This document shows positions 42,739 to 55,803 of a DNA stretch of 64,000 nucleotides, in pieces. The stretch is from Microcoleus sp. CAWBG506. GTDB taxonomy: Bacteria > Cyanobacteriota > Cyanobacteriia > Cyanobacteriales > Microcoleaceae. The notes under the pieces are model-generated. The model did no database searches, was not told the origin of the DNA, and was given only the letters and a program-made list of their open reading frames with translations. Each line of letters begins with the position of its first letter. The first letter of the stretch is position 1. The translations under genes were made by a program, and so were the position numbers. The stretch lies in assembly GCA_020883125.1 (NCBI GenBank), contig JAHREW010000020.1, forward strand, positions 6,298 through 70,297, read 5' to 3'.

Positions 42739-42786
42739 AAATCCCCTTATTGACATTGCTGCAAGATCTCAGTTACACGCCACTTA

Positions 42787-42985
42787 CTCGTTCCCAGGAA
42801 GAGCCTGGTAACGCAGGTCCAGAGGCTCTGCCTCCAATTTTTCTACTCGTTTATACTCGTTCCCAGGAAGAGCCTGGTAACGCAGGTCCAGAGGCTCTGC
42901 CTCCAATTTTCTGTTAGCAAGCAGCAAGCAGCAAGGGAGGCAGAGCCTCTAGACGTTGATTCCCAGGAAGAGCCTGGGAACCAGT
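42787..42985. repeat. 'CTCGTTCCCAGG...GAGGCTCTGCCTCC' repeat, two direct and one inverted copy
   Basis: Two near-identical direct copies (about 42787-42842 and 42856-42910) read CTCGTTCCCAGGAAGAGCCT then CCAGAGGCTCTGCCTCC. A third in inverted order (42937-42982) reads GGAGGCAGAGCCTCTAG then TTCCCAGGAAGAGCCTGGGAA. Each unit can fold on itself (AGAGGCTCTGCCTC; CCCAGG...CCTGGG). A further copy lies at 43979-44028. Confidence 0.85.
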
Positions 42986-43248
42986 TAGCAAATACTTAGT
43001 CCGCGCACCATCCGGACTCCGTTTTTGTAGACGCGGTTTCAACCGCCGACTCACTTGACAAAAATACCAAAATCGCCGATAATCGTAGATTGTCTGTCTA
43101 AATCCGGCTCGGATCAGGTTAAGACATTCCAAAAGCTGAAAAACCGTCAGCCGTCAAAAGTCCACAGCCAAAAGTTCGTAACCAATGACTAAAGACCAAT
43201 GACCAATGACTCATCAGCTACCTGTACGGCAATCTCAACAACCATCCC

Positions 43249-43978: not shown

Positions 43979-44028
43979 TCGTTCCCAGGATCTGCCTGGG
44001 AACGCATTTCTAGAGGCTCTGCCTCCTG
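43979..44028. repeat. 'CTCGTTCCCAGG' dispersed repeat
   Basis: CTCGTTCCCAGGATCTGCCTGGGAACG then AGAGGCTCTGCCTCC, the same family as 42787-42985 and self-complementary (CGTTCCCAGG/CCTGGGAACG). Confidence 0.85.
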
Positions 44029-44050
44029 ATTTTATATCTCAATATACTCA

Positions 44051-44081
44051 TATCCCTGACTTCTTTAAGAAGTCGGGGATA
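44051..44081. terminator. Hairpin after rplU-rpmA
   Basis: TATCCCTGACTTCT / AGAAGTCGGGGATA form a 14-bp stem with one G-T wobble around TTA. It lies 88 bases after rpmA and probably ends that transcript. There is no strong T-run, so termination efficiency is unsure. Confidence 0.6.
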
Positions 44082-44121
44082 TAAGGTTGGGTAGACAAGT
44101 TTTGTGATAAATTCGGAATGA

Positions 44122-44200
44122 TTTAACCGCAGAGGCCACAGAGGGCACAGAGGAAGAGAAAAGAAGAGAGAGATGAATAATTTCGATACCAAGGGATTTA
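44122..44200. repeat. Dispersed 'AACCGCAGAG...ACAGAGG' repeat
   Basis: GATTTAACCGCAGAGGCCACA ... GAGATGAATAATTTCGATAC, a close match to 23619-23704. It lies between rpmA and thiS (convergent). Confidence 0.75.
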
Positions 44201-44221
44201 ATATGATTGGCTAATTTGTGG

Positions 44222-44434
44222 CTAGCCTCCTCCGACAATGGTCACAATTTCTAAGATGTCGCCTTCTTGGATTTGTGTGGTTTCCCAAAATTGTTTGTGC
44301 AGAATTTCGCCGTTGTATTCGACAGCTACTAATCGCGGATTTAAGCCTAGTTGTTTTAATAATTCTGGTAATGGTGTTTCGATCGCACAATTACGACTTT
44401 CTCCGTTGACTTGTAGCGCAATTTGATTGGTCAT
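44222..44434 (-). CDS. thiS: ThiS, sulfur carrier for thiamine synthesis
   Basis: 70 aa ubiquitin-like protein. It ends in the obligatory Gly-Gly (VTIVGGG-COOH, here one extra Gly) that is adenylated and thiocarboxylated. The N-terminal MTNQIALQVNGESRNCAIET and VAVEYNGEILHK fit ThiS. It donates sulfur for the thiazole ring. It lies downstream of thiE in the same direction with a 142-bp gap. Confidence 0.9.
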   Translation of the reverse strand: MTNQIALQVNGESRNCAIETPLPELLKQLGLNPRLVAVEYNGEILHKQFWETTQIQEGDILEIVTIVGGG

Positions 44435-44457
44435 TCGTTTATTAGTTTAATTATTTG

Positions 44458-44576
44458 AAGGAACCGCGAAGACACGAAGAACACGAAGGAAGAAAAGCAT
44501 TTACTTCTTTCTCTTGCTACCCTTCGGGAACTCCTGCGGGGAACGGGTCCTTGGTGCCTTCGTGGTTCATTTAATC
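44458..44576. repeat. Repeat-filled gap between thiE and thiS
   Basis: The arms GAACCGCGAAGACACGAAG and CTTCGTGGTTC (44561-44572) are imperfect complements around a hairpin GGGAACTCC...GGGGAACGG. It is a dispersed-repeat type similar in flavour to the 'AACCGCAGAG' family. No gene seen. Confidence 0.6.
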
Positions 44577-45659
44577 TTACGACTTATTAGTTATAAGTTT
44601 GTGAGTTTTGAACTTCTGCATCCGAATTAGCTGGGAGATGAAAAATTGGGTGACTAAAGTTGGTTGTTCGGCTTCCATGATCGATCGCACAACTGCTACT
44701 CTGGAAGCTCCGGCATTCAATACTTCGTCGAGGTTGTTGATGTCTATTCCGCCGATCGCAAACCAAGGAATCGGGGACTTAGCAGCAGCATACCGCACAT
44801 AATCCAAACCCGCAGCCTGTTTATCGGGTTTTGTGGGAGTGGAGTAGACTGGGCCAACTCCAATATAATCGGCTCCTTCTTCAATGGCTCGCTGCATTTC
44901 CTCGGCGTTTGTGGTGGAACAGCCGATGATGCGTCCGGGCCCCAGCAACTTGCGCGCTTCGGCTACAGGCAAATCTTGCTGTCCTAAGTGTACGCCGTCG
45001 GCATCCGCTGCGATCGCCAAATCTACGCGATCGTTGATAATCAACAAAGCATCGTAGCGGTGACAAAGTTCCGTCATCTGTCGCACATTCGCCAACTTCA
45101 CCCCATCGTCTGAGGTTTTGTCGCGGTACTGTACTAAAGTCAGTCCGCCTTGCAAAGCAGCTTCCACCACTGCTAACAAGTTGTCTCTGGGCGAAGTTAC
45201 GAGGTATAACTGCGATCGCAATAACTGCTGATAGCGCCGATAAGCCAGCAAATCGCTCTCCAGAGTATAAACCCGATAGCGCATCTGCTTAAAAGCCTTG
45301 CCCATATTCGGATCGTAAACTTTGCCATACTCTTCAAGTACCCGCAGCGCTTCTTCCACCCGACAGAAATTCGCTTCCAGTAGCTGCTGAAGTCCAGAAC
45401 GCTGTTCTTCCTGCGGATGAGTCAGTTCCGTACCGGGGTCTGCGGGCGTATCCCTAGCACTCCGCAATTCTGGGGTGTGCCAAAAAGCCAATTCCTGGCG
45501 CAGTTGCTTACACTCACCAGCTAAATCGGCGCTATTGAGACCAAATCTACACCATTCTTCAATGATTCTCAATCCTTCACGGGCGCGATCGAGATTTGCA
45601 TCTAAAATCCGGCACAGAGCGGGCTGTGCCGATAAAGTTCTGTTTGGTTTTTGCGTCAT
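44577..45659 (-). CDS. thiE: Thiamine-phosphate synthase with N-terminal extension
   Basis: 360 aa. The C-terminal ~210 residues form the ThiE TIM barrel: LVQYRDKTSDDG, INDRVDLAIAADADGVHLGQ, GCSTTNAEEM, DYIGVGPVYSTPTKPD and WFAIGGIDINNL. The N-terminal ~140 residues (RILDANLDRAREGLRIIEEW) form a helical domain fused to ThiE in cyanobacteria and some other bacteria. It joins the pyrimidine and thiazole phosphates into thiamine phosphate. The 206-bp upstream gap contains no recognisable TPP riboswitch. Confidence 0.93.
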   Translation of the reverse strand: MTQKPNRTLSAQPALCRILDANLDRAREGLRIIEEWCRFGLNSADLAGECKQLRQELAFWHTPELRSARDTPADPGTELTHPQEEQRSGLQQLLEANFCRVEEALRVLEEYGKVYDPNMGKAFKQMRYRVYTLESDLLAYRRYQQLLRSQLYLVTSPRDNLLAVVEAALQGGLTLVQYRDKTSDDGVKLANVRQMTELCHRYDALLIINDRVDLAIAADADGVHLGQQDLPVAEARKLLGPGRIIGCSTTNAEEMQRAIEEGADYIGVGPVYSTPTKPDKQAAGLDYVRYAAAKSPIPWFAIGGIDINNLDEVLNAGASRVAVVRSIMEAEQPTLVTQFFISQLIRMQKFKTHKLITNKS

Positions 45660-45865
45660 ATAGAACCACCTTTATCATTAATCCTAGCTTTAACCGCTAC
45701 ATTGTCCCACGCTGTTCTGATTGTAGTAAAGTGCGATCGGGCATTAACCGATTTAATTGAGATTAACAAAGAAACGGAGTAAATGCGAGGGAATCCGAAT
45801 TTTCGCGGATTCTCCGCTACAGCAGATCCCGCCCAAAATTTACAGTGTTGGACGGATGGCATAAT

Positions 45866-47242
45866 TTAATCTTGACAACAATTCTTTACATATTCTTGAA
45901 AAACAGAAGACAATTTAAACAAGATTTTATCCTCTTTTATTTTCGTTACTAAATACCTTTGTTGTAAAGACTGTAAACCATTAATTAAATCCATTGATGA
46001 TAAATCTAAACTCTGTCTCAAATATTCTCTGGATACAGGTTGATTAAACTTACTTAATTCTAAAACAAGTTGCTGTTCTATAGGTGATAGTTTGTTAAAT
46101 AACTGGTTAAAATTATCTTGCATATTTTTGGTAATAATCAAGCTATTCTCCGCTAAAAACTCAGCAACTTCACCATCAAAAATCTTTTTAATTAAAATAG
46201 CAATACTTTTTAAATAAACCGGATTACCCTCATATAAATTAATTAACTTTAACCAACTATCCTCATCTTTCAATCCTGTACCTTTCAGAATTGCTACATC
46301 ATCTAAATCTGACAACTCTAAACATTTTATCGGATATAATTCCTCATCTAAACACTCCATTTCCGCACATTGCTCTTGACTAACTAAAATCACATTACTT
46401 TGATGCTCAGTTTCTGTAATCATGGTAAAAAACTTTTTATAATCTTGATATTCAGATTTATATTGTCCCGCGAATTGAGCATTAGCAAAGATATTATGAA
46501 CATCATCAAGGATAATCAAACATTTTTTGTATGTCAAAACATCTAAGAATTGTTTTAAATTATCATCTATAGTTTCTTTAGCTTCTTGTTTACAAGCATT
46601 CAATAAATCATTAACAAATAACTCTAAAGGTTTAGAGAATTTTAGGCTTCTCCAGATAATTACTTCAAATTGTTTTAGATTGAGATCGACAAACCTTTTA
46701 ACTAGAGTAGTTTTACCAATTCCACTCAATCCCAATACTGAGATTAAACGAGTATTTTGATTTAAAATCGAATTAGAAAGGGTTTTTATTTCAGATTCTC
46801 TTGCGTAAAAATTGATGATTTGAGGAGCTACTGTTAAATCGAAATGTGATGTAAATTGAGTATTTATATCACTTTCGTTGAGTTTATTTCTTGGGCTAAT
46901 TTGATTTGAGATCTGTGTAGGATAAAAATGATTATTACTGCCATTTATATGGTAAATATTATTGGAATTGTCAGATGATTCAATATATACTCTTTCTAAG
47001 TTAGAACGAAAATTAGATTTTTTTATATCCTCATCCAATATTTCAGATAAAAGTTGCCATAATTCAGCCCCCACATCACCTACATGATTTTTACTGACAT
47101 GACACTTCTGGGCGATATCATCATAGGTTTGTCTTTCCCAAGTCCCCTCAACTACAGCCCTTTGAACATCATCTAGGTGCTTTCCAGTTCGTTCAACCAC
47201 TAGCCGATCTACGAATTGTAACAGTTGGCTTACATTCATCAA
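45866..47242 (-). CDS. Compact NB-ARC (STAND) ATPase with N-terminal vMAP-like HTH domain
   Basis: 458 aa. Residues ~1-80 (QLLQFVDRLVVERTGKHLDD; YDDIAQKCHVSKNHVGDVGA) match the N-terminal helix-turn-helix-like domain found on cyanobacterial NB-ARC and vWA-MoxR-associated proteins. A spacer with SNNIYHINGSNNHF is followed by NB-ARC: Walker A GLSGIGKTTL, RNBS-type VIIWRSLKF, Walker B KCLIILDDVHNI, and a winged-helix end. No WD40, TPR or effector domain follows, so it is a short STAND. It is divergent from the RiPP-like operon with a 226-bp gap, is AT-rich like it, and may be its regulator or sensor. Confidence 0.85.
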   Translation of the reverse strand: MMNVSQLLQFVDRLVVERTGKHLDDVQRAVVEGTWERQTYDDIAQKCHVSKNHVGDVGAELWQLLSEILDEDIKKSNFRSNLERVYIESSDNSNNIYHINGSNNHFYPTQISNQISPRNKLNESDINTQFTSHFDLTVAPQIINFYARESEIKTLSNSILNQNTRLISVLGLSGIGKTTLVKRFVDLNLKQFEVIIWRSLKFSKPLELFVNDLLNACKQEAKETIDDNLKQFLDVLTYKKCLIILDDVHNIFANAQFAGQYKSEYQDYKKFFTMITETEHQSNVILVSQEQCAEMECLDEELYPIKCLELSDLDDVAILKGTGLKDEDSWLKLINLYEGNPVYLKSIAILIKKIFDGEVAEFLAENSLIITKNMQDNFNQLFNKLSPIEQQLVLELSKFNQPVSREYLRQSLDLSSMDLINGLQSLQQRYLVTKIKEDKILFKLSSVFQEYVKNCCQD

Positions 47243-47468
47243 AGCTATACATGATAAAGGTTTTAGCCATTATAGCTGAATTCACTCCTATTTTTTCTTA
47301 TCTTTTCCTATTTTTTGCTTAATATTGTGTAACAAAACTCCAGTTGAAATCCGAGTTTTTCCGATCGCAGTCCCATCTTTAATTTTGGTATGCTCTTAAA
47401 TAATAAAGCGTAGGCTTAGAAAGTCGTGCTTTTTCCGTTGTTTATAATTTGTCAGAAGCATTACTAAA

Positions 47469-47693
47469 ATGACACAAGCAAAAGAAAGATTACTCACTGA
47501 TACTTACTCACAAAATGATTGTATTGTTCTTGACCTTGAAGAATTTGACTTGAGTGACTTAGATGCACTCAAAAATACAGCACTTGGTAATATTTTAGAA
47601 ATAAATTTTCAAAATCCAATGGCAATATCTGATAATAATCGACATGAGAGCCATTCTTCTCATGCTGAGTTCCATCAACGTGCTTGGGGGTAA
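47469..47693 (+). CDS. Putative RiPP precursor peptide
   Basis: 74 aa. The N-terminal ~50 residues are acidic and helix-prone (DCIVLDLEEFDLSDLDALKN), fitting a leader for enzyme recognition. The tail from residue ~54 is rich in His and polar residues, HESHSSHAEFHQRAWG, with Phe and Trp able to serve as cyclophane sites and His as oxidation sites. It is the first gene before a radical SAM/SPASM maturase and an HExxH protein. It lacks the C-terminal FxSxx of FxsA peptides. The precursor role is inferred from size, composition and context; I recognise no family. Confidence 0.7.
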   Translation: MTQAKERLLTDTYSQNDCIVLDLEEFDLSDLDALKNTALGNILEINFQNPMAISDNNRHESHSSHAEFHQRAWG

Positions 47694-47720
47694 TCAAGCA
47701 CTGGCTATTACAGAATACTA

Positions 47721-47765
47721 ATTAAATGGCTACTAAGTTACCTCAAGCAATAGTAGCCATTTAAT
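47721..47765 (+). terminator. Perfect 15-bp stem-loop between precursor and maturase
   Basis: ATTAAATGGCTACTA (47721-47735) and TAGTAGCCATTTAAT (47751-47765) are perfect complements around a 15-nt loop, 28 bases after the precursor stop and 41 before the maturase. There is no long T-run. It likely acts as a partial terminator or 3' stabiliser to give more precursor than enzyme mRNA. Confidence 0.75.
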
Positions 47766-47805
47766 TCTGGCATACATAATTTAAGTTTTGAACATATCAT
47801 AATTT

Positions 47806-48966
47806 ATGACTGAGTTTACACCCTTACATTCGCTGGTTTGTAAAGTAGTATCCCGTTGCAACCTTAACTGTGATTATTGCTATATGTATCAGCATAGCGA
47901 TCAAAGTTGGCAACAGCAACCTTTGAAAATGTCCGAAGCAACTATTACACAATTAGGTAAGAGAATTGATGAACATACCACCAAACATCAAGTATCAGAA
48001 TTTTCTGTAATCATGCACGGTGGAGAACCTCTTTTAGCAGGATTAGACTATCTCAAAAAAATTCAAGAAATTATTTCAAAAAATGTGCCTAATGTTAAAC
48101 TAAGATTTGGTATACAAACTAATGGTGTGTTGTTAAACGATGAAATTTTAGACTTCTGCGTTTCTAATAATACAACAATAGGTCTAAGTATGGATGGCTA
48201 TCAAGAAGCCAATGATTTGCATCGCTTAGATCATCAAGGTAAATCTACATTTTCCAGTTTGGAAAAGACTCTTGAATTATTAAGTAGCGATCGAGGACGG
48301 AAAATATGGGCAGGTTTTTTATGTGTGATCGATCTACATAACGATCCTGAAGCTGTATATTCTTATTTATCACAATATAATCCTCCTTCGATTGATTTTT
48401 TGTTACCTTTAAATCACCATGATTTAAGACCTCTTGGTAAAGAACAATCTCTTGATGTAACTCCTTATGCAGACTGGCTACTTAAAATTTTTGATATTTG
48501 GTATCATCAAAAACCTCAAACAATCAAAATTAGGAAATTTAAAGAAATTATTTTGCTAATGCTAGGATTACAAGGAAATTCAGAAGAATGGGGTTTAAAC
48601 CCTGTTGATTTTGCCGTTATTGAAACCAACGGTGATATTGAAGCAGTTGATTCTTTGAAAGTTACTTATCCCGAAGCTACCAAGTTAGGAATGGATATAT
48701 TTACCCACAGTTTTGATGAAATTTTTGAATCACAAAAAGTTATTGAACGTCAAGAAAAGTGGCAATACTTGAGCAAAACTTGTCAAGAATGTAACTTAGT
48801 TAAAGTTTGTGGTGGTGGTTATCTTCCCCATAGATATTCTAGCGAAAATTACTTTCATAATCCATCAGTGTATTGTTCCGATCTCAAAAAAATGATTACT
48901 ACAATTCGCGGACAAGTAATTGAAGATATGCAAACAATAAAAAAGCAAAAAAATCCTGCTGTTTAG
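47806..48966 (+). CDS. Radical SAM/SPASM peptide maturase (FxsB-like)
   Basis: 386 aa. The radical SAM cluster CNLNCDYCY has C18, C22 and C25, followed by FSVIMHGGEPLLAG (SAM site) and RFGIQTNGVLLND. The C-terminal SPASM region has CQECNLVKVCGGGYLPHRYS and NPSVYCSDL, the arrangement of FxsB-type maturases, several of which form cyclophane crosslinks on aromatic residues. It is expected to bind auxiliary clusters and modify the 74-aa peptide. It lies between the precursor and the HExxH gene in a tight same-strand run. Confidence 0.9.
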   Translation: MTEFTPLHSLVCKVVSRCNLNCDYCYMYQHSDQSWQQQPLKMSEATITQLGKRIDEHTTKHQVSEFSVIMHGGEPLLAGLDYLKKIQEIISKNVPNVKLRFGIQTNGVLLNDEILDFCVSNNTTIGLSMDGYQEANDLHRLDHQGKSTFSSLEKTLELLSSDRGRKIWAGFLCVIDLHNDPEAVYSYLSQYNPPSIDFLLPLNHHDLRPLGKEQSLDVTPYADWLLKIFDIWYHQKPQTIKIRKFKEIILLMLGLQGNSEEWGLNPVDFAVIETNGDIEAVDSLKVTYPEATKLGMDIFTHSFDEIFESQKVIERQEKWQYLSKTCQECNLVKVCGGGYLPHRYSSENYFHNPSVYCSDLKKMITTIRGQVIEDMQTIKKQKNPAV

Positions 48967-49000
48967 TCAAACTTCGTCTTATTAAATTAGGGTTAGTGCA

Positions 49001-50842
49001 ATGAAGATCGAGCTGGATATTAATACGATCAAAAACTTTGTTTCTCCTGCCGGGGCTTCCGATCCATTAGTTAAAGTAATTTTTTTGGCAGAATATCATA
49101 GAACTTTGCTAAGGTTAAGTAATCTCAATCAAAAACTGCAATCAGAATCACCTGATTTAATTAATCGTACCAAATTTTATCAATCTTTTGAGTTGGTAAA
49201 ATCTTTTTCTAAAAATGCCCAAAGAAAAATTTTACGCTATCCATCTTTTAGTTTTTGGTTGGATACAGCTTGGCAATTAGTTAACCGAAAAGCTCATATT
49301 CTGTTTCCAGAAATGCACATTAAGTTTCATCTGGAATCTTTCCCAAAGTTTGTTTTAGCAATGGCAACATATGACAATATAGAAAATATTGAATGTTTTT
49401 TATATACCGATCATGCTGGAATTATTGCCATAGCCGGAACCGGAATTTATTTACAGCATCCTCAACACCTTGCCTTTCAAAGATTGCGTTTTGTGACCAC
49501 AACTAATGAGAGTTTTCATATTTATACAGATGGTAATCAAAATTTGGAGATGATTCAAAATGAAATACCTCATCTCAATAATGGCATTGAATTAAATGGT
49601 TTTGATAGTGACTTACATTTAGGAGGTCGCTATAATTTGAATTTTGAGGAATTAACACCAACTTCCACTATTAAATGGTTATCTAGTTTAGAGGAAGCTT
49701 GGTTTTGGATAGATAGTTATTCAACTTTATTAGCAAGTGAAATTCTCATCGGCGTACAATCTTTAGTTCCAGTACATTCTCATGCTATTGATATTCATAG
49801 AAGTCAAACATTTCGAGAAATACCCGGACTTCTAGTTTTATCTTGGATGTCAGACACCTCAGTAATAGTAGAAGCTTTAGTCCATGAATATCATCATCAT
49901 AAACTTAATGCTTTATTAAATTTAGATCCAATCATTGTAGAAGGTAGTTCTGAAGCAATTTATTATTCTCCTTGGCGTGACGATCCTCGACCTCTCAGTG
50001 GTATTTTGCAGGGAATTTATGTCTTTCAAGCTGTTTTAGAATTTGGGCATAAAATTCTGAAAACAGATATACCTCTTTTACAAGAAAAGCGTTTACAACA
50101 AAGAGTATATACTGCTAAAAAACAACTGCTAACTGCACTTAAAGTTTTAAAAACGAATGCAGAATTTTCTTTGATTGGTCAAGGATTGATTGAAGCCATA
50201 GAAGAAAATATCGATCGAGTTGAACCTGAAATTTCTCAAACAGACAAACAACTTATTGACGTTAGATTAAAAGAACATCAGCAGAAATGGGAAGCGGCAA
50301 ATCCTAATTTAATCGAAACACAAATATTGCCAATTCAAGTATCTATTGATTTGGCAAATAATGACAACAATACAATATTGAATCAATCATGTAAATGGCT
50401 AGGAATTACACCAAATATTGATTTACGTCCCTTAACTTATCTGAGACAACCATTCGATCCAATTCTTGAGACTTTAGTGGCTGTTTACCACGATCGAGGC
50501 TTAAAAGAATTAGAAGACATATTAAAAGAAACTCAGTTGGGAACTTCTGTTTTATTGGACTTAATATGTGGACATACTGCTTATCTCAATCACGACTATC
50601 AGCAAGCAGCAGAATTTTATCAAAGTTGTCTTGAGCAACATCCTAATGCTCCTTATTTTTGGCAATGTTTTATGTTTGCATTAAGACATTTAAACCTGTT
50701 AGACGATTACGAGTTAATCTTAATTAATCTAGATAAACTTGTTGCTAATAGTTTAGAAGTCAAAAGATTAATCAGGCAAAACTCAAATTCTGAAAATAAA
50801 GTTCAAATGATGGTTAAATTAGTTCAAACATTAGTTAATTAA
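49001..50842 (+). CDS. HExxH protein, alpha-ketoglutarate peptide-hydroxylase type
   Basis: 613 aa. A central LVHEYHHHKLNALL gives HExxH with H295, E296 and H299, followed by PIIVEGSSEAIYYSPWR, the usual continuation in the HEXXH domain proteins that sit next to FxsB-like enzymes. Members of this group studied recently hydroxylate peptide side chains with Fe(II) and alpha-ketoglutarate rather than cleaving peptides. The C-terminal ~100 residues carry a TPR-like segment (YQQAAEFYQSCLEQHPNAPY). It likely adds hydroxyls to the crosslinked tail of the precursor. It starts 34 bp after the maturase. Confidence 0.8.
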   Translation: MKIELDINTIKNFVSPAGASDPLVKVIFLAEYHRTLLRLSNLNQKLQSESPDLINRTKFYQSFELVKSFSKNAQRKILRYPSFSFWLDTAWQLVNRKAHILFPEMHIKFHLESFPKFVLAMATYDNIENIECFLYTDHAGIIAIAGTGIYLQHPQHLAFQRLRFVTTTNESFHIYTDGNQNLEMIQNEIPHLNNGIELNGFDSDLHLGGRYNLNFEELTPTSTIKWLSSLEEAWFWIDSYSTLLASEILIGVQSLVPVHSHAIDIHRSQTFREIPGLLVLSWMSDTSVIVEALVHEYHHHKLNALLNLDPIIVEGSSEAIYYSPWRDDPRPLSGILQGIYVFQAVLEFGHKILKTDIPLLQEKRLQQRVYTAKKQLLTALKVLKTNAEFSLIGQGLIEAIEENIDRVEPEISQTDKQLIDVRLKEHQQKWEAANPNLIETQILPIQVSIDLANNDNNTILNQSCKWLGITPNIDLRPLTYLRQPFDPILETLVAVYHDRGLKELEDILKETQLGTSVLLDLICGHTAYLNHDYQQAAEFYQSCLEQHPNAPYFWQCFMFALRHLNLLDDYELILINLDKLVANSLEVKRLIRQNSNSENKVQMMVKLVQTLVN

Positions 50843-50849
50843 AAATTTT

Positions 50850-51821
50850 ATGAATATAGCAATTTTGAGCAAATACTTAGTAAATAGTCCTTTTGGCAAA
50901 TACCTTGAGATATTTCCTGATGGGGGACAATTACCTGCTTTTATTGCTACTGTTAAAGGATTAAAATCAGCAACAGATTTATGGGTTCAAAAGCCCAAAT
51001 GGAAATCTTTTTGTGAATTAGCTCAATATTTTGGCTTGTATTATTATGTAGATGCTTATTTCGATCGAGATTTGGGAAAATTAAACAGTTTACCTCAAGA
51101 GTTATTTACTACAACTAAAGCTGTTTTTAGTAAAGATTTTTCTGACCAAGCTCATGTTTTTATTGCTAACTCCCAAGATGCTTTAACCAATGCAATTGCT
51201 TCAGGATGGTATCCTTTAGTTGTCGATGGAAGAGTAATTGAAAAACATTTAGCAGACCATTATACTTTTGGAAAAGCACTAGGTTATCCTCAATGTTGTC
51301 TTGAGTTTTTTCAAAAGCGAAATCATTGGAATTTTTATAATAATTACTATGAAATTTATCGCAATACAATTAACAAGTCTACATATTTATCAAATGGGTT
51401 GTTACGCCATACTCCATTCTCATTGATTCCCCATATACCTTGCTCTTTTAATTGTGAAGCATCTATCGAATATGCTAAAAAAAATCGCATTCTAATTAAT
51501 GAGGAGAGTCCAGAATATTTAGAAGAAATAGAACATCATTTACAAACACCAATTTTATGTCTTTCAGAACTTAAAATTTATCGTTTTGAAGGTAACATTG
51601 TTGCTGAAAATGTAGTCAACTATCAATCTGTAGAGGCAATATTTCCTACATCACAAAATGATTTACTATATCAAATACTTGTTAAAGGTGATACTTGTAT
51701 GGTTGAGGGGAATATTATTAGAGTTTACCGAGACAATACTCAGATAAGTGCTTATTTTGCTAGAGGTGACAAACATGAAGTAGAGATTCCATTTTTAATT
51801 AGTTTTTCCAAAGATACTTAA
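50850..51821 (+). CDS. DUF483-like protein in the RiPP-like operon
   Basis: 323 aa. Its hallmark is KALGYPQCCLEFFQKRNHW with a Cys pair (C149, C150), then HTPFSLIPHIPCSFNCEAS with two more Cys, resembling DUF483. The C-terminal ~100 residues are beta-rich. No signal or membrane segment. The conserved Cys might bind a metal or cluster. It starts 7 bp after the HExxH gene. Its function is unknown; a partner in peptide modification is the simplest guess. Confidence 0.65.
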   Translation: MNIAILSKYLVNSPFGKYLEIFPDGGQLPAFIATVKGLKSATDLWVQKPKWKSFCELAQYFGLYYYVDAYFDRDLGKLNSLPQELFTTTKAVFSKDFSDQAHVFIANSQDALTNAIASGWYPLVVDGRVIEKHLADHYTFGKALGYPQCCLEFFQKRNHWNFYNNYYEIYRNTINKSTYLSNGLLRHTPFSLIPHIPCSFNCEASIEYAKKNRILINEESPEYLEEIEHHLQTPILCLSELKIYRFEGNIVAENVVNYQSVEAIFPTSQNDLLYQILVKGDTCMVEGNIIRVYRDNTQISAYFARGDKHEVEIPFLISFSKDT

Positions 51822-51903
51822 TTGACAAAATAGGTATTATTAAAAACATTCTAGGGGCATATAAAATGTATACTTTAGTTTTAATTAGATGAGGATTAAT
51901 ATC

Positions 51904-52704
51904 ATGAATCTTGCAGAAAAAATTATTAACAATATTCAAGAAAAAGATTTACAATATATTCTTGATTTAGAAAAAGAGATTTTGAATTCTAAATTAACTT
52001 TAGATCGAAATTTGTTAATAGATGTGGAGGATCAAAAAACCGCCCAACGATATTTCTATCTTTATACACTACCTATGTTAGAAGGACTAGGACTTTTAGA
52101 GCAGCAGGAAAATGCTATTTTTTGGGGGACTGTGCAATTATGTTTAGATTTACATCTAAGATATGTGGATTACATCATAGATGATGATAAAATAGACATA
52201 AGCAGATTATTAATTACGCAAAAATCTTATAACTATTTATTCCGAGCGCAAATGCTACTAAATCAAAAAGGCTATTTGTGGGGTTCCGATCAAATGGCTA
52301 TTTATACGCAATATTTTGACTACGAGAAGGAGGCAAATACCGATATGTTTCATGATTTTGGTAGCTTATGGAGACGAGTATCTCCTCTATTCATTGTTTC
52401 TGAAAGTTACTTAAAATTATCTGGTCAAATAGTTGATTTTGATTTTTATTACAAACGGTATATAAGTTCTTGGCTGCTCAAAGCAGATTGCTCGGATATT
52501 ATTAAGGATATTCATAAACAAAAAACTCCGATTACCCATTTAGTATATGATTATGATGCTCAAATTGATAAGAATGTAATGTTGATGGCTAAGACTATTA
52601 ACTGTATTGATGTCAAACTCGATCGAGGTTTAATTCAAATCAAAAACCACATATTTAACAAACTTCCAATATGGACAATAATTATTGAAAGTTTGTTGTC
52701 TTAA
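51904..52704 (+). CDS. Unrecognised protein at the end of the RiPP-like operon
   Basis: 266 aa from ATG 51904, with GAGG 9 bases upstream (ATG 51889 would add five residues). I do not recognise the family. It is helical, with aromatic-rich stretches and an acidic segment LRYVDYIIDDDKID near residues 85-98 that loosely recalls the Asp-rich motif of class I isoprenoid synthases; no second motif is clear. It follows the DUF483-like gene after 82 bp, shares its AT-rich codon use, and is probably the last gene of the unit. Confidence 0.6.
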   Translation: MNLAEKIINNIQEKDLQYILDLEKEILNSKLTLDRNLLIDVEDQKTAQRYFYLYTLPMLEGLGLLEQQENAIFWGTVQLCLDLHLRYVDYIIDDDKIDISRLLITQKSYNYLFRAQMLLNQKGYLWGSDQMAIYTQYFDYEKEANTDMFHDFGSLWRRVSPLFIVSESYLKLSGQIVDFDFYYKRYISSWLLKADCSDIIKDIHKQKTPITHLVYDYDAQIDKNVMLMAKTINCIDVKLDRGLIQIKNHIFNKLPIWTIIIESLLS

Positions 52705-53401
52705 AGTTTCGCTTCCTCATATTCATCAAGAATTACCTGTAAGGGGCATGGAAACTGACAAGCGAGGCGCGCGAATGCTCCTGGTTTCCCGGCAGTCCAA
52801 AAGTCATATCAAATTCCTTCGCATCGTCTGTATTCATCTCTCTGCGCTCGAACTCTGCGGCAAGAGCGGCAAGAGCGGTTAAATCATTCCGAAACAACCG
52901 TAAACTTTATCATTCCGACGTTTTTCATGTCACCGTAGGCGATATTGTCAAAGTTTTTCTCTTCAAGGATATGAAGAGAGTGAGAACAGGATTCTCACAG
53001 CCTCTGCGGGTGAAAACACAGACAACGCAAGGATGTGAGGTTTTGATCGACGACGAAAGATGTAGTTTTAGTTTATTGTAATGATGGGTACGGTTATGAA
53101 GGTTCAAATTATGCTTCACCCTGATTTACTCCGATATGAGGCTACTAGATATTTAGACGAATTTTTAAGTTTTATTGAATTTAAAGAAAACACAGCATAA
53201 TAGATCAAACTTGATTATAGTGGAATCCCTAAGGTGCGATCGCCAAAATCCGACACTAAACACGGGATGCGACACTCGACTCAAAGATAAGTTATGACAA
53301 CCGTTAAGGTTCCACGGAACGTCAATAATTGCTCCAACCATTGTTTTGATTGCATTTTCGTTTTTCTTTACTTACTTATTCCTTAGACTATACATTTTTT
53401 T
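52705..53401. other. 697-bp gap after the island
   Basis: It includes an inverted, decayed copy of the 'AACCGCAGAG' repeat (52830-52895) with a duplicated CAAGAGCGG, and ACAGGATTCTCACAGCC-type sequence near 52985. A 39-codon frame at 53081-53200 (MMGTVMKVQIMLHPDLLRYE) could be a tiny or truncated gene, but has no recognised relatives and no clear RBS. The rest appears non-coding. Confidence 0.5.
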
Positions 53402-55129
53402 ATGTTCATTAACTCCAAACAAATCGGGTGCAAAGAAAATCGATCGCAAAGCAAAGCCTTAAGTTCTTGCCTTTTGCTGATCTGTACCAGTGTCTCATTT
53501 TTCAAGCTTCAACAATCTGTTATTGCCGCCGAAACTCCCATAGTACAGATAATAGCTCAGGCGCAGCAGGCGGGAATCAACATCCTGTACGTCAGCTCAT
53601 CCGGTGGAAGTGATACAGCAGGTAATGGGAGCGATCGATATCCATTCAAAACCATTACCTACGCCTTAAGCGTCGCACCGCCCAACACAGCAATTTTGCT
53701 AGCGCCGGGTACCTACAGCGCTCAAACCGGCGAACAATTTCCGATCGTACTCCAGCCAAACGTGACTCTTCAGGGAAATCCCAATACTCGCGGTCAAAAT
53801 ATTGCGATCAAAGGCGGAGGAGACTTTCTCAGCCCCACTTCGGCTGGTCAAAATATCACCATTTTAGGCGCATCGGGAGCCAGACTCAGCGGGGTGACAG
53901 TGACGAATCCCAACTATCGGGGTTATGCTTTGTGGATTGAATCGAGCTCTCCCACGGTGGTTAACAATACTTTTTTGGGGAGCACTCACGACGGAATTTC
54001 GGTGGTGGGTAATTCTCGCCCGATGATTAGCGGGAATCTGTTCTCGAAAAATGGTGCTAATGGGATGACGATTTATGGCACTTCCCAGCCGGAAGTTCGA
54101 GATAATGTCTTTGAAAACACTGGATTTGGGGTGAATGTAGCGCAACAAGCTTCTCCTTTGTTAATCGGGAATCAGATTACTCGCAATAAGGATGGCGTAG
54201 TGGTACAAGCTGATGCTACACCGGTGCTCCGTAATAATTATATCGAGAAAAATCGGCGAGATGGCATTGTGGCGATCGCCCGTGCTCTCCCCGATTTAGG
54301 AACCATGACGGAACCGGGGGGAAATGTAATTCGCAACAACGGCCAGCATGATGTGAATAATGCTGCCAAAGGTCAATTAATTCAAGCTTATGGCAATCAA
54401 TTGTTGAGCAACCGCACGACGGGACAAGTTCAGGTGGCGGGAACTTTCAACTCTCCTCTATCCATTGGTGGCCATGATTTGGGGTTAGTTGCTCAACCTC
54501 CCAGAAGCGGTGGGCCAGATAGCTCTTTACCTGTTTATACCACAGCTCCCTTAACTCCGAGAGTTCAAAGATCGCCCCAGAGGCTTCTGTCGCCGCCCTC
54601 AGCGAGTCCTGCCCAAAATCGATCGGCATCGGGTCAAACTCGGTTGTCCCCTCTGTTGGCTCCCCCAAGTCCCTCTGCTTCGGCGATCGCCATTCCAGTC
54701 CCAACTCCAGATTCTCGCTCCGTTGCAGAAATTGCTGTGCCGTCGCCAATGTTACCACCTAACTTGGATAGTGCGATTCCGGTTCCTGCTGATGGTAAAT
54801 TACCAGTTCCCAGTCGCAACATTCCTCTGGGAAGGGGTGGCTATGTACCTACTGGGTTAGGGGGTAATTCTGTGGCTAATTCTGGGGAAAATGCGCCATC
54901 ATTCGATCGAGCATTAGCTTTGGGTTTTCGGTATCGGGTGGTAGTTGATGCTCAGAGTCAGAGCGATCGAGTCAGGATGCAATCTCTGGTTCCCGATGCT
55001 TTTCGTACTTTTTCTAACGGGCGCGCCGTCATGCAAGCAGGTGCTTTTCGGGAACAGGAAAAAGCTGAGGAGTTATTACAGATGCTCACTGCTAATGGTT
55101 TGAATGCCAGGATTGAAGAGATAAAATAA
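53402..55129 (+). CDS. Exported DUF1565/beta-helix protein with Pro-rich linker and SPOR-like end
   Basis: 575 aa. The signal-like segment (SCLLLICTSVSFFKLQQSVIAAE) precedes a DUF1565 start (LYVSSSGGSDTAGNGSDRYP, LLAPGTYSAQTGE) and a right-handed parallel beta-helix with repeated NN/GN turns (VVNNTFLGSTHDGISVVGNS; ISGNLFSKNGANGMTIYG). A Pro/Ser-rich linker of ~140 residues follows. The end (GRAVMQAGAFREQEKAEELL) resembles a SPOR domain, which binds denuded septal glycans. A cell-surface polysaccharide-binding role is likely. It abuts a methyltransferase gene by one base. Confidence 0.82.
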   Translation: MFINSKQIGCKENRSQSKALSSCLLLICTSVSFFKLQQSVIAAETPIVQIIAQAQQAGINILYVSSSGGSDTAGNGSDRYPFKTITYALSVAPPNTAILLAPGTYSAQTGEQFPIVLQPNVTLQGNPNTRGQNIAIKGGGDFLSPTSAGQNITILGASGARLSGVTVTNPNYRGYALWIESSSPTVVNNTFLGSTHDGISVVGNSRPMISGNLFSKNGANGMTIYGTSQPEVRDNVFENTGFGVNVAQQASPLLIGNQITRNKDGVVVQADATPVLRNNYIEKNRRDGIVAIARALPDLGTMTEPGGNVIRNNGQHDVNNAAKGQLIQAYGNQLLSNRTTGQVQVAGTFNSPLSIGGHDLGLVAQPPRSGGPDSSLPVYTTAPLTPRVQRSPQRLLSPPSASPAQNRSASGQTRLSPLLAPPSPSASAIAIPVPTPDSRSVAEIAVPSPMLPPNLDSAIPVPADGKLPVPSRNIPLGRGGYVPTGLGGNSVANSGENAPSFDRALALGFRYRVVVDAQSQSDRVRMQSLVPDAFRTFSNGRAVMQAGAFREQEKAEELLQMLTANGLNARIEEIK

Positions 55130-55803
55130 TGAATTTGATGCAGCGAGTTTTGGAACCGGAGGTTATGGATTCCTGGGAAGAGGCCATCGAATACGATTCG
55201 ATGGACTTTACTGAGGTTAATTCTGCTTTTGCGATGGGTGCGGCCGCCTTGGGCCCGGTTTTTGGAAACGTTTTGGATGCGGGGACTGGTACGGCGAGAA
55301 TTCCCATTGCTCTTTGTGCAATACGTCCCCAGTGGCATTTGACTGGCATTGATTTGTCGGCGAATATGCTGAAAGTCGGGGGTGAAAATGTGGAAAAGGC
55401 TGGAGTGCGATCGCAAATTAGTCTTGAATTAATTGATGCCAAGGCAATGCCCTATCCTGACAATTATTTTGACATGGTGATTTCCAATAGCATTATCCAT
55501 CATTTGCCAGATCCGCTGCCATTTTTTCAGGAAGTCCAGCGGGTGTTGAAACCAAAAGGAGCAATATTTTTGCGGGATTTATTGCGGCCGGAAACACCAG
55601 CAATCAGGGATAATTTAGTAGAGATGTATGCGGGAGATTGCAACGCGCATCAACAGCAGTTATTCAGAGATTCCCTACAGGCGGCTTTTACTTTGGATGA
55701 AATTCAGACTATCATAAAAACTGCGGGTTTGGATGGGTTGAGAATTTATGAATCGTCAGACAGACACTGGACGGCTGAACGTGCTTGGTCTGAGTATGAA
55801 TAG
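55129..55803 (+). CDS. Class I SAM-dependent methyltransferase
   Basis: 224 aa. Motif I is NVLDAGTGTARIPIAL, then LTGIDLSANMLKVG, NYFDMVISNSIIHHLPDPL and RVLKPKGAIFLRDLLRP. The overall form resembles UbiE/Coq5-like methyltransferases, but substrate cannot be told. The start overlaps the stop of the beta-helix gene (TAATG), so the two are translationally coupled. Confidence 0.88.
   Translation: MNLMQRVLEPEVMDSWEEAIEYDSMDFTEVNSAFAMGAAALGPVFGNVLDAGTGTARIPIALCAIRPQWHLTGIDLSANMLKVGGENVEKAGVRSQISLELIDAKAMPYPDNYFDMVISNSIIHHLPDPLPFFQEVQRVLKPKGAIFLRDLLRPETPAIRDNLVEMYAGDCNAHQQQLFRDSLQAAFTLDEIQTIIKTAGLDGLRIYESSDRHWTAERAWSEYE

Follow-up and report, generated by a model that had tools for sequence, protein, structure and literature searches.

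In the available portions of published reports, the three-residue cyclophanes of triceptides are described as i/i+2 links, in which an aromatic residue i is bonded to the beta-carbon of residue i+2, the aromatic being His for HaaB and YhhB and Tyr for YxdB and YhhB (PMC11002830). The reported activity of ChlH is hydroxylation of His and Asp in a peptide that already carries a cyclophane, and HExxH enzymes, PflC being an example, can also function where the described cluster has no radical SAM gene (PMC12636437). A peptide, a 'zincin-like' protein, a radical SAM/SPASM enzyme and an NB-ARC-type AP-ATPase occur together in actinobacteria, with a proposed role in conflict (PMC7159879), and Thermus phages carry a radical SAM gene with a DUF483-domain gene, for which the authors suggest DNA modification (PMC11437467). 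Here we describe a cassette in the window, the whole 64,000-nucleotide stretch of Microcoleus sp. CAWBG506 DNA that was analysed (contig JAHREW010000020.1, positions 6,298 to 70,297). The cassette is a discrete mobile block with sharp edges, found at differing chromosomal sites, and it is probably an operon for a triceptide-type ribosomally synthesized and post-translationally modified peptide (RiPP), in which a maturase, an HExxH enzyme and their partners would modify a 74-amino-acid peptide.

A first-pass annotation of the same sequence had claimed six genes here, and all six functional-looking open reading frames were found where it placed them:

45863..52713, whole cassette, the unit common to the window and three other Microcoleus genomes (G395, G399 and G354), its edges adjoining the STAND and last genes at their stop codons
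45866..47242, minus strand, divergent STAND (NB-ARC) ATPase, in the same place in G395, G399 and G354
47469..47693, plus strand, precursor peptide of 74 amino acids, with a conserved leader and a variable C-terminal tail
47643..47687, plus strand, proposed core, residues 59-73 (HES-HSS-HAE-FHQ-RAW), with an aromatic at every third position over the first twelve
47720..47766, plus strand, hairpin with perfect 16-bp arms between the precursor and maturase genes (I8 of the repeat search, fold z -3.65)
47806..48966, plus strand, radical SAM/SPASM maturase of the FxsB family, ChlB-like
49001..50842, plus strand, alpha-ketoglutarate HExxH-type peptide beta-hydroxylase-family protein, extended at its N-terminus and with a TPR-like stretch close to its C-terminal end (Pfam TPR below cut-off)
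50850..51821, plus strand, DUF483-like protein (PF04467) with four invariant cysteines
51863..51889, plus strand, 27 bp left over from the beginning of a histidine-phosphatase-type gene, 27/27 identical to the G354 gene
51904..52704, plus strand, last protein, 266 amino acids from the ATG at 51904 (271 from 51889), in no accepted family

Family models bore out the annotation's view that this is a RiPP locus whose maturase is of the FxsB type and whose HExxH protein is of the hydroxylase type. The maturase passed FxsB TIGR04269 (428.2 bits, cut-off 370), with CX3CX2C cysteines at 18/22/25 and SPASM cysteines at 326/329/335/357, and its best solved relative was the radical SAM domain of ChlB (PDB 9gm3, 286.6 bits). 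The HExxH protein passed TIGR04267 (102.5 bits, cut-off 40), with HEYHH at residues 295-299, and by sequence it is a predicted hydroxylase of the alpha-ketoglutarate peptide beta-hydroxylase family; HE..H and a downstream RP were invariant in all eight aligned relatives, and its best solved relatives were 22nu, an entry annotated as radical SAM (53.6 bits), and ChlH (PDB 8s5f, 47.1 bits). The DUF483-like protein (PF04467, 30.7 bits, cut-off 25) and the divergent NB-ARC ATPase (PF00931, 37.7 bits, cut-off 23.5) were likewise recovered as proposed, and the last protein, already called unrecognised, had no accepted family in Pfam, NCBIfam or PHROGs. The ratio of nonsynonymous (dN) to synonymous (dS) substitution rates was 0.17-0.47 in every pair for the STAND, maturase, HExxH, DUF483-like and last genes, and 0.24-0.98 for the short precursor gene.

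Judged by sequence, the cassette comes nearest, among known systems, to the chl triceptide pathway (ChlB, ChlH), as the maturase resembles ChlB and the HExxH protein resembles ChlH. Three records appear to hold the chl cluster (genome G334 with locus L011, the PCC 7702 record L052, and Fischerella muscicola PCC 7414, L051), since the 722-amino-acid fusion protein of G334 matches by eye the residues printed for 9gm3. The window's maturase was 38% identical over 384 amino acids to this radical SAM-HExxH fusion and its HExxH domain 31% identical over 134 amino acids to the ChlH-like one; both clusters have a short aromatic-rich precursor and a DUF483-like gene. They differ in that maturase and hydroxylase are fused into one protein in the chl cluster and separate in the window. 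The chl precursor belongs to the YhhA family (53.6 bits, cut-off 36), the chl cluster has arginase-like and GNAT-like genes (weak matches), the gene divergent from its precursor is helicase-like by reading, and blastp (E 1e-5) found no counterpart of the last protein, the phosphatase or the STAND in L011, L051 or L052.

With the actinobacterial FxSxx systems, as far as the available text describes them, the cassette shares a radical SAM/SPASM enzyme, a zincin-like HExxH-type protein, a small peptide and an NB-ARC-type ATPase, but it is cyanobacterial, lacks the FxSxx motif, has a STAND without a TPR match and adds the DUF483-like and last proteins. Aromatic i/i+2 motifs, radical SAM/SPASM maturases and His and Tyr substrates are common to the described triceptides (YhhB, YxdB, HaaB, XncB, OscB, MscB; available text of PMC11002830), whereas four tandem triads, aromatics varying between cassettes (H/Y, F/H) and crosslinks that are predicted set the cassette apart. 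The Thermus phage module also pairs a radical SAM gene with a DUF483-domain gene, but the available text names no precursor peptide or HExxH gene (PMC11437467). The claim that the combination was undescribed stands only in part: radical SAM with HExxH and NB-ARC (actinobacteria, PMC7159879) and radical SAM with DUF483 (Thermus phages, PMC11437467) had been published, in the portions available, and chl apparently has a DUF483-like gene. New with respect to the open-licence literature searched are the DUF483-like protein in radical SAM/HExxH RiPP clusters, chl included, the reciprocal loss of DUF483 and phosphatase genes, the unclassified last protein and viral groupings of radical SAM, DUF483-like and HExxH genes.

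A discrete cassette at differing chromosomal sites

The six-gene type of set was found in 4 of 29 Microcoleus genomes, at three chromosomal sites. A maturase search of these 29 genomes matched seven, four of them strongly (at least 87% identity, the window's own counted), G390 and G391 at 36% and G402 weakly. The STAND, precursor, maturase, HExxH and last genes kept the same order in all four cassette genomes, and the peptide gene lay beside the maturase gene in each, so that one of the two outcomes named in advance as refuting, a peptide gene not conserved next to the maturase, was not seen. Recurrence of the complete set, which the first-pass annotation had raised, was seen with one departure: the DUF483-like gene is present in three of the four cassettes, and G354 has a histidine-phosphatase-type gene there instead.

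Blastn of window positions 44001-55200 against the three other cassette loci (L023, L024 and L010) gave one block, from 45863-45875 on the left to 52712-52713 on the right, unbroken in L023 and L024 and broken in L010 at the DUF483/phosphatase swap; outside this block only a self-complementary hairpin matched. The right edge is common to all four cassettes and ends AAGTTTCGC. With flanking genes named by sequence reading, the cassette lies between thiE-like and beta-helix-like genes in the window, between thrB-like and fructose-bisphosphatase-like genes in G354 and G395, and after a ribosomal-protein-L7/L12-like gene in G399. The window's site was empty in all six other Microcoleus genomes examined, G395, G399 and G354 among them, where the flank genes are 358 to about 1,810 bp apart and leave no room for the cassette. 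Flank homology with these six genomes stopped at 45665-45762 and restarted at 53151-53162, and about 100 bp to the left and 440 bp to the right of the cassette matched neither the other cassettes nor the empty-site genomes. The gene set is conserved across four genomes and three sites, with flanks unlike the window's, which indicates more than a chance assembly.

Over 46001-52000 (three 2-kb steps) the G+C content was 0.30-0.33, as against 0.388-0.494 in the other 29 steps of the window. No integrase or transposase was recognised among the cassette's genes, no strong inverted repeat was found at its edges in the repeat search of 45600-53450 (the best, I2, 75% over 28 nt, lies outside the cassette), and no plasmid matched 47469-52704 by DNA or the last protein by tblastn. 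Promoter-like sites numbered 45 against 35.4 (sd 6.1) in shuffles and terminator-like sites 2 against 3.4; no Rfam family reached its gathering threshold in 44500-54000 and no tRNA was found in the window. Outside the cassette, open reading frames at 42750-43132 repeat the short peptide PGNAGPEALPP..., which suggests repeated DNA between genes.

Precursor tail and predicted product

Searches of Pfam, NCBIfam and PHROGs gave no family for the precursor. Its tail reads HES-HSS-HAE-FHQ-RAWG in the window, HES-HSS-HGE-FNQ-RAWG in G395 and G399, and HSS-YSS-YTK-HSK-GAW in G354, where one more His lies three residues upstream. Aromatics are fixed at tail positions 1, 4, 7 and 10 in all four cassette precursors, with His, Tyr and Phe interchanging (H/Y, F/H), and the tail thereby follows the aromatic-X-X motif of triceptides, its register held in 4/4. 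The observed aromatic run was 4, 4, 4 and 5 for the window's genome (G000), G395, G399 and G354, and was matched by 7034, 2409, 2525 and 553 of 200000 shuffled tails, respectively. Between the window and G354, dN was 0.133 and dS 0.400 in the precursor's leader, and 0.649 and 0.583 in the tail. The sole Cys of the precursor is residue 18; the core lacks Cys, which excludes a thioether type there.

The product is likely a multi-cyclophane, beta-hydroxylated triceptide, a chemistry and role that we infer from the computed genes, families, conservation and three-residue period. The maturase would bind the leader of the 74-amino-acid peptide and link each aromatic (His, Tyr, Phe) at position i with the beta-carbon of residue i+2, as in related three-residue-cyclophane enzymes, so that as many as four cyclophanes in a row would form on HES-HSS-HAE-FHQ. 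The HExxH enzyme may then beta-hydroxylate residues of the tail once it is cyclised, perhaps the central ones of the triads. The DUF483-like protein, with its four invariant cysteines, would be a further modifying or maturation partner and the last protein another accessory, and the STAND ATPase, judged mainly from its position, may be a sensor-regulator of the operon or an activation switch. Aromatic crosslinking plus hydroxylation, as the first-pass annotation had put forward, is thus kept as the best inference for the predicted product. The hairpin between the precursor and maturase genes is kept in all four cassette genomes and perhaps attenuates read-through, so that peptide would outnumber enzyme; its covariation was not significant, with one two-sided change among two distinct sequences, reached by 244 of 500 shuffles.

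Several points weigh against a triceptide operon. The window tail alone is not striking, as 3.5% of its shuffles match, and the tail limits for shuffling were set by eye after the sequences had been seen, on four related precursors that are effectively two independent ones. The precursor gave no match to the YhhA model NF041705, and, as had been claimed for it, it lacks the FxSxx-COOH ending, its tail closing on RAWG; a search of its own genome with the FxSxx-COOH model TIGR04268 turned up only a match below the cut-off, on a different contig (12.1 against 28 bits). Because the precursor fits neither model, its substrate motif is only a predicted one. The X3 residues of the window's triads are Ser, Ser, Glu and Gln, while those of known enzymes are given as Arg, Asn, Asp, Ser or Ala, not Glu or Gln, in the available text of PMC11002830. 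The maturase fell short of the YhhB model NF041707 (398 bits, cut-off 445), and no protease or exporter was recognised inside the cassette. The abundance of STAND-like stretches in the genome and the divergence order of the STAND gene, both given below, belong on the same side.

It is possible, at a clearly modest probability, that the cassette is instead a STAND-controlled conflict system (anti-phage or self/non-self), with the same triceptide acting as an intracellular effector rather than an exported metabolite. The published coupling of a peptide with zincin-like, radical SAM/SPASM and AP-ATPase proteins and a proposed conflict role (available text of PMC7159879) would fit, as would the lack of a recognised exporter or protease inside the cassette, its patchy spread (4/29 genus genomes), a tail evolving faster than the leader and a STAND carried inside the mobile unit. 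However, PADLOC on four cassette proteins gave only weak matches, to the STAND alone and at best 24.6 bits, the nameable flank genes look like housekeeping genes (no defence-gene scan was made of the flanks), and the STAND has no Pfam TPR or TIR match, unlike the published AP-ATPases.

The DUF483-like protein within and beyond the cassette

In the proposed triceptide operon, the DUF483-like gene has dN/dS of 0.28-0.44 in the cassettes that have it, and cysteines C149, C150, C198 and C202 of its product did not vary among 13 aligned sequences. Just upstream of the last gene, the window, G395 and G399 keep the opening codons of the phosphatase gene, the window's remnant agreeing at 27/27 bases (0/2000 shuffles score as high), and the start of the DUF483-like gene is kept in G354 directly after the HExxH gene (0/2000 shuffles as good). 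The G354 phosphatase-type gene is an open frame of 172 amino acids with sub-cut-off matches to the histidine phosphatase superfamily (best 70 bits). As the remnants are mutual, the simplest reading of these sequences is an ancestral cassette that had both genes, which were then lost separately.

Across 386 cyanobacterial genomes, the HExxH family was found in seven (six over the cut-off) and PF04467 in two (E up to 0.001), with only the window's own over the cut-off; both PF04467 genomes, the window's and G334, belong to the seven, and the two genes lie in the same cluster in each. Minus the window's genome this leaves 1/385 with PF04467, among 6/385 with HExxH, so that the co-occurrence is suggestive only. 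A protein search added a third cyanobacterial genome, G027, with a DUF483-like gene adjoining another radical SAM gene. Among the DUF483-like loci of the genome collection a radical SAM profile matched in 10/13, all except L047, L048 and L053; the L048 gene adjoins one with a radical SAM-type cysteine motif.

In viruses, 80 of 92 DUF483-like loci were kept (62 clusters at 90%; 5 kb flanks). A radical SAM match was present in 78/80, a rate with no background to compare (a control scan around an unrelated viral gene covered only two loci and was not scored), on the same strand as the DUF483-like gene in 78/78 and within 1500 bases of it in 74/78. HExxH-family proteins occurred in 6/80 viral loci (L073, L074, L079, L080, L102 and L108), L073 and L074 being near-duplicates and L080 part of the training set, and also in the Elusimicrobial locus L049; four of the five viral proteins submitted passed the TIGR04267 cut-off, L073 and L049 were below it, and L074 was left out. 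At L080:2532-6733, and likewise in the viral loci L073, L074, L079, L102 and L108, radical SAM/SPASM, DUF483-like and HExxH beta-hydroxylase-family genes stand together. The DUF483-like proteins at L080:4668-5936 and L045:7590-9110 have a C-terminal extension that looks, by reading, like a methyltransferase, and DUF483 fusions of a methyltransferase-like kind are mentioned in the available text of PMC11437467.

In an approximate core-region tree of 97 tips, the window's DUF483-like protein grouped only with its two Microcoleus orthologues and the chl proteins were the three tips farthest from it, which suggests that the window and chl clusters probably recruited their genes independently. The predicted structure model had a mean pLDDT (predicted local distance difference test) of 40.0, with 12 Foldseek matches, none below E 2.5, and a PDB profile search with the DUF483 alignment gave one chance-level match. 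PMC7112168 was set aside as DUF483 literature, as the matching term in its available text was DUF4832. Tentatively, and with more doubt than belief, the DUF483-like protein could be the third enzyme of a recurring radical SAM/HExxH/DUF483 toolkit that writes a common, undescribed modification on peptides or proteins. Its targets would be RiPP precursors in Microcoleus and chl, and perhaps tail or other structural proteins in the viral and Elusimicrobial modules; the Microcoleus cassette would then be a STAND-controlled, site-hopping form and its product a tetra-cyclophane with an extra DUF483-dependent change. The far placement of the chl proteins counts against such a shared toolkit.

That same placement, with its probable independent acquisition, and the G354 cassette, which has a phosphatase-type gene and no DUF483-like gene, favour a DUF483-like protein dispensable for the product, as an optional add-on, an immunity protein or a cofactor protein. 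We regard this as rather unlikely, given the dN/dS of the gene where it is present, its radical SAM neighbours in the viral loci, always on the same strand, and the presence of a DUF483-like gene in the chl cluster too.

The STAND ATPase, the last protein and the tail

The STAND more likely starts at the ATG one codon in, at 47239. Its residues 22-54 gave weak, below-cut-off matches of a helix-turn-helix-like kind; no TPR or TIR match was found in Pfam, and the FxSxx_TPR model NF040586 scored 18.2 bits against 300. The STAND may be a hitchhiker from an abundant family, functionally unlinked to the RiPP operon, which we hold to be unlikely. Its family is indeed abundant, with 35 matching stretches in the window's genome, and 14 paralogue neighbourhoods (6-9.5 kb each, genes within 3 kb listed) had varied neighbours, with no FxsB, HExxH or other cassette protein beside any. 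Its divergence order (against L023, L024 and L010) also conflicts with that of the enzymes, dS being 0.242 against 0.101 for the maturase between G000 and G395, and 0.178 against 0.310 between G000 and G354, which suggests recombination. Nevertheless, the divergent placement of the STAND is unchanged across four genomes and three sites, the mobile unit ends beside its stop codon, and a STAND 38% identical to the window's sits divergent beside a distinct FxsB+HExxH locus in G391.

This second Microcoleus locus (L026:1927-7678) has a heptosyltransferase-like gene, a 58-amino-acid candidate precursor ending WAD-FSS-HTT-D, the divergent STAND and a maturase 35-36% identical to the window's; the sister contig of G390 ends short of where a STAND would lie. 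The HExxH family occurs once per genome in G395, G399, G354, G391 and G390 (5/5).

The last protein was 84-97% identical across the three relatives. For it Pfam and NCBIfam each returned one marginal match below cut-off and PHROGs returned none; a PDB profile search with its alignment gave one chance-level match, and its AlphaFold2 model (mean pLDDT 35.1) was unusable. DDKID and DxxxD strings, seen by eye, and the invariant Trp in the C-terminal region of the precursors had prompted the idea of a class I isoprenoid synthase or ComQ-like protein; this is speculation that found no support, no such family appearing in Pfam or NCBIfam (E up to 1) or in a PDB sequence search (E up to 10). Distant matches in G208 and G120 (32% over about 73 amino acids) were discarded for their unrelated neighbours. 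In another genus of the family, L029 (G320:C164:56806-56931) matches the last protein at 55% over 42 amino acids with one stop inside, and is perhaps a decayed copy of its gene.

That the tail simply binds metal while the enzymes make another modification (hydroxylation, epimerisation) without cyclophanes is very improbable: the tail is His-rich, and HExxH enzymes such as PflC can work in clusters for which no radical SAM gene is described (available text of PMC12636437), but the maturase exceeds the cut-off of a family whose annotation is cyclophane formation, the register holds in G354 although Tyr stands in for His at two positions, unexpected for metal binding, and the Cys-free core offers no thioether alternative.

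If the prediction of a triceptide operon is true, the cassettes would provide a compact natural series of His/Tyr/Phe polycyclophane substrates, with aromatics varying at fixed positions, and a defined peptide on which the action of the DUF483-like protein could be tested. For filamentous cyanobacteria, the locus presents a RiPP operon and a STAND ATPase as one discrete unit at differing chromosomal sites.

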